NCBI RefSeq assembly: GCF_002154375.1
Contig: NZ_MUND01000151.1
Location: 387-41,541 of the forward strand
DNA from: Streptomyces glaucescens
GTDB lineage: Bacteria > Actinomycetota > Actinomycetes > Streptomycetales > Streptomycetaceae
Direction of reading: 5' to 3'
DNA length: 41,155 nucleotides
Position 1 is the first letter of the stretch. Each line of letters begins with the position of its first letter. The notes under the pieces are model-generated. The model worked only from the letters and a program-made list of their open reading frames with translations, had not been told where the DNA came from and searched no databases. Positions 3,973 through 17,167 of this stretch are shown here, in pieces. Made by a program: the position numbers and the translations under genes.

Positions 3973-3989
3973 TGACCGCGAGGGTACGG

Positions 3990-4102
3990 AAAACCCCCGT
4001 GAGTCAGGTCCTCACGGGGGTCTCCGCCCTACCGCCCGCCCGCGTGAAGGGTGAGAAGACGATCACGAGGCGGGACGTTCCAGGGGGTCAGGGGGCAGGG
4101 AG
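3990..4102 (-). ncRNA. Candidate s-SodF-like 3'-UTR small RNA
   Basis: In S. coelicolor a stable RNA of about 90 nucleotides is cut from the sodF mRNA 3' UTR and represses sodN, the nickel SOD gene. Here the sodF 3' UTR has the matching arrangement: about 80 bases of leader after the stop codon followed by a strong terminator hairpin (3993-4021) with a U-run. The call rests on position and architecture plus that precedent. The sodN target is not in the window, so complementarity could not be tested. Confidence 0.42.
3993..4021 (-). terminator. Intrinsic terminator of sodF
   Basis: An 11-base-pair stem (ACCCCCGTGAG with its complement) closes a 7-base loop. Read on the minus strand it is followed by TTTT. 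It lies about 80 bases past the sodF stop codon and ends the sodF transcript. Confidence 0.8.
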
Positions 4103-4744
4103 TCAGGGTGCCAGGAGCAGCGCGTTCGCGCGGGACGTGGCGGCCTCGTACCGGCGGGCGACGTCCTGCCAGTTGACGACCTGCCACATCGCCTCGATGA
4201 AGTCCACCTTCTGGTTCTTGTACTGCAGGTAGAAGGCGTGCTCCCAGGCGTCGAAGACCAGGATCGGCGTCGAGCCCTGGCCCACGTTGCCCTGGTGGTC
4301 GTAGACCTGCTCGACGATCAGCCGGCCGCTCAGCGGCTCGTACGCCAGCACGCCCCAGCCCGAGCCCTGGGTGGTGGCGGCGGCCTTGGACAGCTGGGCC
4401 TTGAAGGCCGCGAAGGAGCCGAACGACTCGGCGATGGCGTCGGCCAGTTCGCCCACGCCGTCCTTCTCCAGCGGCTCGCCCCCGCCCTCGCCGGTCATGT
4501 TGTGCCAGTAGATGGAGTGCAGGATGTGCCCGGACAGGTGGAAGGCCAGGTTCTTCTCCAGGCCGTTGAGCGACCCCCACTGCTCCTTGTCCCGCGCCTC
4601 GGCCAGCTGCTCCAGCGTGTCGTTGGCGCCCTTCACATAGGCCGCGTGGTGCTTGTCGTGGTGCAGCTCGATGATCTCCGGGCTGATCACGGGGGCGAGC
4701 GCGGAGTAGTCGTACGGCAGTTCAGGCAGCGTGTAGACGGGCAT
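4103..4744 (-). CDS. sodF: Superoxide dismutase, iron type
   Basis: Cytoplasmic enzyme of 213 residues that disproportionates superoxide; this is the usual length for streptomycete SodF. The metal ligands of the Fe/Mn family are visible: His in IELHHDKHH, His in HLSGHILH, and the DAWEHAFY motif. The ATG at 4744 begins [18 protein letters not shown], the canonical N-terminus, and has a strong GGAGGGG ribosome site. A longer frame upstream only reads through the intergenic region and the permease in another frame. A nickel-regulator box lies just upstream (4768-4784), so expression should be repressed when nickel is available and the cell uses SodN. The transcript ends at the hairpin 3993-4021. 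Confidence 0.97.
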
Positions 4745-4884: not shown

Positions 4885-6282
4885 TCACGCCTCGGCCCGC
4901 TGCTCCCGCCTTCGCTGCCAGAGGTAGCCGACGGCCGCCAGGAACAGCGTCATGCCGCCCGTCGAGTACAACTGCACCCGGGTGTCCGGCTCCCGCGCCA
5001 TCAGCACGAAGATCGCCGCCATCCCGGCCAGCGCCACCCAGGTCAGCACCGGGAACGCCCACATCCGCACCACCAGCTTCTCCGGCGCCTCGCGCTCCAC
5101 CCGGCGGCGCAGCCGCAGCTGGGAGACCGCGATGAAGATCCAGACGACCAGGATCACCGCGCCGATCATGTTCAGCAGCCAGGGGAAGACGTCGTTGGGC
5201 CGCCAGTAGCTGAGCAGCACGCACACGAACCCGAACACCGAGGAGGCCAGCACCGCGATCCGCGGCACCCCGCCGGACACCCGGCCCAGCGCCTTCGGGC
5301 CCTGCCCGCGCTCCACCAGCGAGTAGGCGATGCGCGAGGCGCCGTAGATGTTGGCGTTCATCGCCGACAGCAGGGCGACCAGCACGACCACGTTCATCAG
5401 CTGGCCCGCGCCGGGAATGCCGAGGTGGTCGAGGGTGGCGACGTACGGGCCGGACTCGACGATCTCCTTCGAGTCCCACGGCACCAGCGTCACCACGACC
5501 GCCATCGAGCCGATGTAGAACAGAGCGATGCGCCACATCGCCGTACGGACCGCGCTCGCCACCCCGCGCACCGGGTCCTCGGACTCGGCCGCCGCGATGG
5601 TCACCGTCTCCAGGCCGCCGTACGCGAACACCGAGGCGAGCAGGCCGATGACCAGGCCCTCACCGCCGCCCGGCAGGAAGCCGCCCTCGCCGGTGAGGTT
5701 CGCGGTGCCCGGCGCGTCGGTGCCCGGCAGCACGCCCAGGATGGCGAGCACGCCCAGCACCAGGAACAGCGAGATCGCGAGCACCTTCAGCGCCGCGAAC
5801 CAGAACTCGAACTCGCCGAAGTTCTTCACGGCGGCCAGGTTCGCCCCGCAGAAGACCACCATGAACAGCGCCACCCACGCCCACTCGGGCGTCCCCGGCA
5901 GCCAGCCGCTGACGATCTTCGCGGCGCCGATGCCCTCCAGGCCGACCGCCGTGCACAGCAGCACCCAGAACGACCAGCCGGCGGTGAATCCGGCCCACGG
6001 GCCGATCGCCCGCTCGGCGTGCGCGGAGAAGGAACCCGACGACGGGTAGGCGGCGGACATCTCGCCCAGCATCCGCATCACCAGCATCACCAGGAGGCCG
6101 GAGAGGACGTAGGCGACGACGATCGACGGCCCGGCGGCGGCGATACCGGCGCCGGAACCGACGAACAGGCCCGCGCCGATCACACCGCCGAGGGCGATCA
6201 TCGACAGGTGGCGCTGCTTCAGGCCGTGGGAGAGGGAGGCGTCCGCCTGCGGCGGGGTCTCCTGAGCGGTAGGGCTGGGCAT
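4885..6282 (-). CDS. Amino-acid permease (APC superfamily, AAT/GabP-like)
   Basis: Membrane transporter of 465 residues that should import amino acids with protons. It has about 12 hydrophobic segments. The family signatures are [20 protein letters not shown] just before and in helix 1, VMRMLGEM after helix 2, and the ESEDP segment near helix 6. I chose the ATG at 6282 (MPSPTAQET) because the upstream extension has no permease-like sequence and the hydrophilic leader length then matches the family. A close paralogue lies at 8725-10194 and shares most signatures. Substrate cannot be told from sequence; GABA, proline, aromatic or branched-chain amino acids are all possible. Confidence 0.9.
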
Positions 6283-6658
6283 GGGCGCGGCTCGTCCATC
6301 CGTGAGCGGGGACAGGTAAAAGCGCCCACAGTCTGGGCGGCGGCCCCGGTGACAGGACACCACCGTTCACTATGCGGACGCGCGGAATACGGAGTGTACG
6401 GCCCCGCTCACCCGGCCCGGGAGAGCACGATTCCCGCCGGGTTGGCGAAAACCTACAGCCTGCCCCGCCCCGCCCCACGTGACGCACACGTCCCCACCTC
6501 AGTGACCGTAATCACGTCGCGGGGGGTGTGATCGGCACTCTTTGTGCGCACCCCACCACACCCGCGCTGCCGCCTTTGTCGACCGGTAACGGTGATCGGC
6601 CCGACCCCCCTGGGTTAGCGTCACGGTGTCCCGTACCGCCCTCACCCGCGGAGTCCCC
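6283..6658. other. Divergent intergenic region, permease / bioY
   Basis: These 376 bases separate two divergent genes and hold no credible coding sequence. They should contain both promoters. A TTAGCGT stretch about 40 bases before bioY could be its -10 region. A GTGA-N6-TCAC dyad is listed separately. Confidence 0.6.
6502..6515. promoter_or_regulatory. Possible Crp-like site
   Basis: GTGA, six bases (CCGTAA), TCAC forms a perfect dyad. It resembles the Crp site, and the streptomycete form GTG-N6-GNCAC with one mismatch. It lies between the divergent permease and bioY genes. A chance dyad is possible. Confidence 0.3.
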
Positions 6659-8724: not shown

Positions 8725-10194
8725 TCAGCCGGCCGCGACCTCGTCCCGCTCCCGGTCCTGGCCGGACCCGAGCTTCTGCCGGACCACGGCGATGACCAGC
8801 ACCACCGCGGCCACCAGCAGCGACAGCAGGACGGTCTTGCGCCCGTCGTGCTCGGTGTCGGTGAGCATGTAGCCGAGGATGAAGACGATCATCGCGGCGG
8901 TCGCCCACGTCAGGTACGGGTACAGCCACATCTTCACGACGAGCTTCTCCGGCGCCTCGGCCTGGATGATCTTCCGCATGCGCAGCTGCGAGAAGCAGAT
9001 CACCAGCCAGACGAAGAGCGCGACGGCACCGCTGGAGCTGACCAGGAAGAGGAAGACGGAGTCCGGGAACTTGTAGTTGAAGAACACGGCCACGAACCCG
9101 AAGACCACGGAGACGAGGATCGCCGTACGCGGCACACCGCGCTCGGTGGTCCGGGCGAACGCCTTCGGGGCGTCCCCGCGCTGGCCGAGCGAGAAGGCCA
9201 TCCGGGAGGCGGTGTAGAGGCCGGAGTTGAGACAGGACAGCACCGAGGTCAGCACGATGAAGTTCATGATCTGACCGGCGTGCGCGATGCCCAGCGAGTC
9301 CAGCGCGGCGACGTAGGAGCCCTTGTCCTGGATGGACTTGGAGTCCCACGGCAGCAGCGAGACGACGACGAGGATCGAGCCGAGGTAGAAGACGCCGATC
9401 CGCCAGATGATGCTGTTGGTCGACTTGGTGACGGCCCGCTGCGGGTCCTCCGACTCACCGGCCGCGAGGGTCGCGATCTCGCTGCCCATGAAGGAGAAGA
9501 CGACCAGCAGCACACCGGTCAGGATGGCCCCTGGCCCGTTGGGCAGGAAGCCGCCGTGCTCGGTGAGGTTGGACAGGCCGGCCTGGTCGCTGTCGGCACC
9601 GGGCAGCAGGCCGAACACCGCGAGCCCGCCGATGACGATGAAGGCGCCGATGGCGACGACCTTGATGCCGGCGAACCAGAACTCGAACTCGCCGTAGGAG
9701 CCGACGGAGACCAGGTTGGTGCCGGTCAGCACCACCATCACGATGAGCGCCCAGGCCCACTGCGGTACGGCGGGGACCCAGCCCTCGAGGATCACGGCAC
9801 CGGCGGTCGCCTCGACCGCGAGCACCACGACCCAGAAGAACCAGTAGAGCCAGCCGATGGAGAACCCGGCCCAGCGGCCGAGCGCGCGGTCGGCGTGCGC
9901 GGAGAAGGAGCCGGAGGTCGGGTTGGCGGCCGACATCTCACCGAGCATGCGCATCACCAGCACCACGAGCGTGCCGACGAGCGCGTAGGAGAGGAGGATG
10001 CCGGGGCCGGCGGTGGCGATACCGGAGGAGGACCCCACGAAGAGTCCGGCTCCGATGACGCCGCCGATGGCGATCATCGACAGATGGCGGTTCTTGAGCC
10101 CTGCCTGGAGTCCGCTGCCGGAACCGGGATCGCCGGTCCCTCCGGGGCCTCCGTGGCCGTTGTCGGCCTTCGTCAGGGTCGGCTGCGAAGTCAT
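8725..10194 (-). CDS. Amino-acid permease (APC superfamily), paralogue
   Basis: Proton-coupled amino-acid importer of 489 residues with about 12 helices. It carries the same landmarks as the permease at 4885-6282: [57 protein letters not shown] and LPWDSKSIQ. Its N-terminus is longer and rich in Gly/Pro/Ser. The ATG at 10194 is preceded by AAAGGA at good spacing. The two permeases are clear duplicates separated only by bioY and the FAD oxidoreductase. Substrate is not readable from the sequence. Confidence 0.9.
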   Translation of the reverse strand: MTSQPTLTKADNGHGGPGGTGDPGSGSGLQAGLKNRHLSMIAIGGVIGAGLFVGSSSGIATAGPGILLSYALVGTLVVLVMRMLGEMSAANPTSGSFSAHADRALGRWAGFSIGWLYWFFWVVVLAVEATAGAVILEGWVPAVPQWAWALIVMVVLTGTNLVSVGSYGEFEFWFAGIKVVAIGAFIVIGGLAVFGLLPGADSDQAGLSNLTEHGGFLPNGPGAILTGVLLVVFSFMGSEIATLAAGESEDPQRAVTKSTNSIIWRIGVFYLGSILVVVSLLPWDSKSIQDKGSYVAALDSLGIAHAGQIMNFIVLTSVLSCLNSGLYTASRMAFSLGQRGDAPKAFARTTERGVPRTAILVSVVFGFVAVFFNYKFPDSVFLFLVSSSGAVALFVWLVICFSQLRMRKIIQAEAPEKLVVKMWLYPYLTWATAAMIVFILGYMLTDTEHDGRKTVLLSLLVAAVVLVIAVVRQKLGSGQDRERDEVAAG

Positions 10195-16851: not shown

Positions 16852-16922
16852 AGCGGGCGACGGGAATCGAACCCGCGTAGCCAGTTTGGAAGACTGGGGC
16901 TCTACCATTGAGCTACGCCCGC
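16852..16922 (-). tRNA. tRNA-Gly (anticodon TCC)
   Basis: 71-base cloverleaf on the minus strand. The acceptor stem is GCGGGCG with CGCCCGC and discriminator T. The D-arm is GCTCAATGGTAGAGC. The anticodon stem CCAGT/ACTGG holds loop CTTCCAA with anticodon TCC. The T-arm is CGGGTTCGATTCCCG. CCA is not encoded. It decodes GGA/GGG glycine codons. Confidence 0.96.
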
Positions 16923-17090: not shown

Positions 17091-17167
17091 CGGGGTGTGG
17101 CGCAGCTTGGTAGCGCGTCCGCTTTGGGAGCGGAAGGCCGTGGGTTCAAATCCCGCCACCCCGACCA
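17091..17167 (+). tRNA. tRNA-Pro (anticodon TGG), CCA encoded
   Basis: Cloverleaf with acceptor CGGGGTG/CACCCCG, D-arm GCGCAGCTTGGTAGCGC, anticodon stem TCCGC/GCGGA with loop TTTGGGA (anticodon TGG), and T-arm TGGGTTCAAATCCCG. Discriminator A at 17164 is followed by an encoded CCA (17165-17167). tRNA genes are common integration sites, but no integrase or second att copy is seen next to it. Confidence 0.96.

Follow-up and report, generated by a model that had tools for sequence, protein, structure and literature searches.

The best described counterpart of the RNA considered here is s-SodF of Streptomyces coelicolor. Kim et al. 2013 (PMC3919588) describe it as a nickel- and Nur-dependent RNA of ∼90 nt that shortens the half-life of the sodN mRNA, and loop mutants of it are inactive. 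The same paper gives 16-19 nt of complementarity for the 10 Streptomyces species examined and places sodX divergent to sodN in S. coelicolor. RyhB, PrrF, and FsrA are alike in that a Fur-family repressor controls an RNA silencing a metalloenzyme (PMC3919588), but they are encoded by separate genes, whereas s-SodF is processed out of the transcript that encodes the replacement enzyme. In Staphylococcus aureus, RsaC is likewise a 3′-end-derived RNA of a metal operon that silences a superoxide dismutase (PMC9438474). It differs from s-SodF in its release from mntABC by RNase III, its length of 584-1116 nt, its link to manganese rather than nickel, and its unrelated sequence.

The sodF 3′-untranslated region of S. 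glaucescens

The window analyzed here is a 41,155-nucleotide stretch of Streptomyces glaucescens DNA, and the features of its sodF locus are listed in Table 1. The sodF product shows strong homology to Fe superoxide dismutases (FeSODs) in the PDB, and its gene is the sole match to PF02777 in the genome, which points to one FeSOD. Behind sodF, the minus strand covers positions 1-90 of 90 of the Rfam model RF02790 (sodF_sRNA) with an E value of 8.9e-12 (whole window) and a score above the gathering score. This element begins 25 nt past the sodF stop codon on the same strand as the gene, and no second RF02790 match was reported across the 8.43-Mb genome. We place at roughly 0.93 the probability that the element at 3988-4078 in the sodF 3′-UTR is s-SodF as described by Kim et al. 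2013 (PMC3919588). The layout of s-SodF that the first-pass annotation had recognized in this region is borne out by the full-length match. Its figure of ∼80 bases between the stop codon and a U-tailed hairpin compares well with the 77 nt measured to the terminator hairpin (4025-3989), but the U tail is only short because the T run partly forms G-U pairs inside the stem. The stretch that it had delimited, 3990-4102, is the whole 3′-UTR, and the RNA proper spans only ∼3988-4078.

Table 1. Positions of the features of the sodF locus within the window
Feature	Position	Strand	Basis
sodF, encoding a 213-aa Fe superoxide dismutase; its mRNA is the parent of the small RNA	4103..4744	-	ORF and start; PDB FeSOD matches
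Nur box TTGCAAAGAGCTTGCAA, perfect to TTGCAA-N5-TTGCAA	4768..4784	.	24 to 40 nt upstream of the sodF ATG
s-SodF small RNA (assigned)	3988..4078	-	RF02790, 83.5 bits, cut-off 46
5′ hairpin; anti-sodN segment within its 15-nt loop and the 5′ side of its stem	4033..4077	-	RNAfold
Anti-sodN segment CCTCGTGATCGTCTTCTCA, fully complementary to the sodN leader	4052..4070	-	sequence comparison
Terminator hairpin, 15 bp, 7-nt loop	3989..4025	-	RNAfold

As in S. coelicolor, the RNA lies behind sodF, measures ∼90 nt, and contains two hairpins, the first of which carries the anti-sodN segment with its 19 nt of complementarity. Also shared are the Nur box on sodF, Nur itself, and a sodN gene with a divergent peptidase-like gene, which in S. 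glaucescens is a peptidase-like ORF. The anti-sodN segment is positioned at +33 to +51 after the sodF stop codon versus +19 to +37 in S. coelicolor (PMC3919588), and thus the spacer is 14 nt longer, which counts against the assignment. The terminator stem reads GUGAG/CUCAC versus the more usual GCGAG/CUCGC.

Elsewhere in the window, the minus strand carries two amino-acid-permease-like ORFs similar to each other (4885-6363 and 8725-10194), which flank one BioY-like and one FAD-oxidase-like ORF, all of them named by eye. There are tRNA genes at 16852-16922 and 17091-17164, on opposite strands.

Predicted pairing with sodN and parts of the nickel switch

The genome contains a single sodN gene, encoding one NiSOD (PF09055, E 2.9e-43), and the partner site in its leader is located outside the window on the minus strand (C673:47984-48002). 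The leader consists of TGAGAAGACGATCACGAGG followed by 12 nt and then the ATG. All 19 of these 19 nt are complementary to the anti-sodN segment, and the pairing reaches into the sodN ribosome-binding site, of which the last four paired nucleotides, GAGG, are a part. It begins one nucleotide before the leader position corresponding to the mapped +1 of S. coelicolor. In the genome, TGAGAAGACGATCACGAGG occurs exactly twice, namely in the sodF 3′-UTR (reverse strand) and in the sodN leader, and its reversed pattern has no site at all. An unpaired probability of at least 0.7 is predicted for 9 of the 19 anti-sodN nucleotides. The computed energy of the RNA with its own sodN leader, net of opening, is -21.1 kcal/mol, and against three foreign sodN leaders no qualifying pairing block was found.

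A genome scan for the Nur box allowing one mismatch returned the sodF box and one other site. The neighbors of the latter (C524), judged by eye, are not recognizable nickel genes, and since the reversed control gives equally many sites, one per strand, it is likely due to chance and was set aside. Four Fur-family proteins are encoded in the genome. One of these (L006, 1423-1860, minus strand) matches PDB entry 3eyy, which we take to be S. coelicolor Nur, over all 145 residues with an E value of 6.9e-92.

Given the sodN gene, the complementarity of 19/19 nt, the perfect Nur box, and the Nur match, no part of the published nickel switch is missing. The first-pass annotation had anticipated a complementary stretch of about 18 bases in the leader of a resident sodN gene, and both are found. 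Its further suggestion that the full switch is conserved holds for the components that can be read from the sequence. In the absence of nickel, Nur would leave its box and sodF would be transcribed. The ∼90-nt 3′-end would then be cut out of the sodF mRNA, and s-SodF would pair with the sodN leader such that sodN would be silenced when nickel is scarce. By analogy with S. coelicolor, we infer that the RNA is made, excised, and active in this strain, and the nickel response, the processing, and the decay of the sodN mRNA would follow the same model.

Occurrence among Streptomyces relatives

In a survey of 295 genus genomes, run with stricter filters, RF02790 was matched at E values up to 0.001 in 258 and over the cut-off in 247, and thus the element in the window is a typical representative of a known kind. 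The sodN gene is present in 290 of the same genomes. Exact complementarity of 15 to 20 nt was observed in all 45 relatives for which both sequences were at hand (own genome included; taken from the top-ranked matches among the 295), with controls reaching at most 9. Within the anti-sodN segment, a run of 15 nt, GTGATCGTCTTCTCA, is identical in 60/60 RNAs.

The 37 genomes lacking an RF02790 match, which count against the s-SodF explanation, comprise 22 without an FeSOD match and 15 with one. Of these 15, three (G036, G270, and G185) keep the 13-nt core GATCGTCTTCTCA in the sodF 3′-UTR, six combine an FeSOD of 201-202 aa and a Nur-like box with no anti-sodN segment, and two (G271 and G287) have neither box nor segment. 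A further two (G112 and G134; loci L081 and L080) keep sodF and are without sodN, Nur-like box, and anti-sodN segment; their UTRs are similar, and they probably represent one event. The last two (G067 and G116) show fragmentary FeSOD matches. At the loci L078, L079, and L082 of G036, G270, and G185, the RF02790 match is sub-threshold or absent. The RNA is kept in G080 and G151, where sodN was not found; these assemblies consist of 700 and 1040 contigs, and thus a gap at sodN is possible. Weak RF02790 matches occur in genomes such as G013, which is without FeSOD, and the sodN loci of five such genomes contain none at E ≤ 1.

Among the 34 genomes with sodN and without an RF02790 match, the 18-nt leader GAGAAGACGATCACGAGG is unchanged in 27 and carries one mismatch in three, with G046, G049, G150, and G183 not read. 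For the 21 sodN genomes with neither RF02790 match nor FeSOD, the corresponding numbers are 16 unchanged, two with one mismatch, and three unread. Leader conservation alone is therefore no proof of pairing, and something besides s-SodF, or a recent loss of it, keeps the leader constant. Constancy of the initial 18 nt of the sodN mRNA (C673:47984-48002, L001, and relatives) is seen in most of the Streptomyces-like genomes read that are devoid of sodF and s-SodF. Orphan anti-sodN RNAs in sodF-less relatives were considered and dropped: when 51 genomes were scanned allowing up to two mismatches, the sodF-less genomes among the matches listed showed a single exact site, located at sodN wherever it was read. 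In other families, none of 29 sodN leaders (30 loci, one leader not found) has an element of the GAGAAGACGATCACGAGG type within six mismatches. A promoter-like GTA(A/G)-N-GTC upstream of sodN is common to many of them.

The sodN leaders of the genus, conserved in most of the read genomes without the RNA, together with the strong terminator hairpin in the 3′-UTR, would suit the view that the sodF 3′-UTR is a mere terminator plus degradation fragment whose match to sodN is fortuitous or inherited. We regard this as very improbable. A perfect 19-nt match was reached in 0/5000 shuffles, the anti-sodN segment is the invariant part of the RNA, and beyond the genus, loops with different sequences likewise match the start of the sodN mRNA. 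In addition, mutation of the anti-sodN segment abolishes silencing in S. coelicolor (PMC3919588). Less probable still is that s-SodF acts on other targets, in addition to sodN or in its place, for although a further genomic site matches the 19-mer with three mismatches (C704:3938-3956), sodN is the only perfect site, and the sodN-less G112 and G134 keep sodF with neither anti-sodN segment nor Nur-like box.

Probable anti-sodN hairpins in Streptosporangiales

Thirty other-family genomes, from 253 with sodN, were tested, and seven contain an FeSOD. The sodF 3′-UTR fits the sodN leader of its own genome in three of the seven, namely G519 (Thermomonospora echinospora; 13-nt match, 0/5000 shuffles), G577 (Microbispora siamensis; 11 nt, 0/5000), and G601 (Streptosporangium pseudovulgare; 9 nt, 21/5000). 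In G601, a second 9-nt block lies against the sodN ribosome-binding site. Complementarity in G417 (Nonomuraea deserti), G310, G476, and G384 is 5 to 7 nt, the level of the shuffles. The names of G519, G577, G601, and G417 derive from the identity of 300 nt of sodF.

The G601 protein served as query to collect a wider set of 80 named FeSOD loci, the best of 356. The 3′-UTRs of these loci were set against 18 sodN leaders from the same family, in which the +1 was predicted from its spacing to the promoter-like motif, as mapped in S. coelicolor. In 20 UTRs, an exact complementary block of 9 nt or more begins at this predicted +1, and a second, flatter cluster occurs near the sodN ribosome-binding site; wrong-strand and reversed controls gave at most two at any position. 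With one G-U pair allowed, a block of ≥10 nt anchored at +1 is found in 47/80 UTRs versus 12/400 shuffled ones, and at 9 nt in 51/80 versus 42/400, the related loci not being independent in either count. The 47 include 12 Nonomuraea (AGCTTGGTCC), 2 Spongiactinospora (AGCATGGTCC), 3 Microbispora (AGCACTGTTCC), 1 Herbidospora (GAGTGGCTGC), and 28 Actinomadura plus 1 Thermomonospora, mostly with GGATC[AG]TGCTCAG. Except for the same-genome pairs, the matched leader belongs to another genome of the family, and none is certain to be from Actinomadura.

In many of these 3′-UTRs (Nonomuraea, Microbispora, Actinomadura, and others), the anti-sodN segment is located in the loop of one long hairpin. That of Actinomadura/Thermomonospora has an 18-bp stem around a nearly invariant loop. 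In an alignment of 27 of the 28 UTRs with GATC[AG]TGCTCAG (L263 left out), both sides have changed in 9/18 pairs and 97.5% of cells pair. The covariation score was reached by 0/500 shuffles, and slid versions of the stem pair at 38-50%. In Nonomuraea/Spongiactinospora, 4/18 pairs are compensated (12 of 14 UTRs; L244 and L248 left out).

Plain nested cofolding of three Streptosporangiales pairs gave no gain (-1.1, -0.5, and -0.2 kcal/mol versus -28.3 for Streptomyces). Since such folding cannot represent loop-to-linear pairing, the duplex energy and the opening cost were computed instead, and the values are to be read as coming from a method adopted after that unfavorable result. For four RNAs, including s-SodF of the window, the own leader was best at -21.1, -8.7, -9.1, and -12.8 kcal/mol, whereas foreign leaders reached at most -6.7 kcal/mol.

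Scanning 19 of the 80 loci for RF02790 at E values up to 1 detected no match. We infer that these hairpins work like s-SodF yet stand outside the Rfam family. A Nur-box-like site (≤2 mismatches, ≤150 nt upstream) is found for 46/47 sodF genes with an anti-sodN block and 28/32 without, and thus the box does not separate the two groups. This count covers 79 of the 80 loci, L249 being truncated, and a control stretch inside the gene gave 0/79. Shortly downstream of sodF in Nonomuraea corallina there is a cobalamin riboswitch (L240:2228-2433; RF00174, 92.9 bits).

On the basis of these data, we consider it likely that s-SodF-type control extends beyond Streptomyces. Throughout the Streptosporangiales, sodF genes with a Nur box would terminate in one long hairpin, and its apical loop would be antisense to the first nucleotides of the sodN mRNA, in many cases together with a further segment directed at the ribosome-binding site. 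Loop and target would have changed together, with the position at the mRNA +1 conserved and the sequence not. The s-SodF element in the window is of a known kind; new here are the Streptosporangiales anti-sodN segments of different sequence, and in the titles and abstract openings of the papers listed no report of an anti-sodN segment outside Streptomyces was found. The pattern is suggestive of an antisense control of sodN by sodF-derived RNA that is older, or has evolved more often, than recorded, with RNA and target co-varying. If true, this natural compensatory evolution would provide independent support for sodF-sodN RNA pairing and would extend it to genera beyond RF02790. It also yields exact testable predictions, for example, that the sodN mRNA of Actinomadura should start close to CTGAGCACGATCC.
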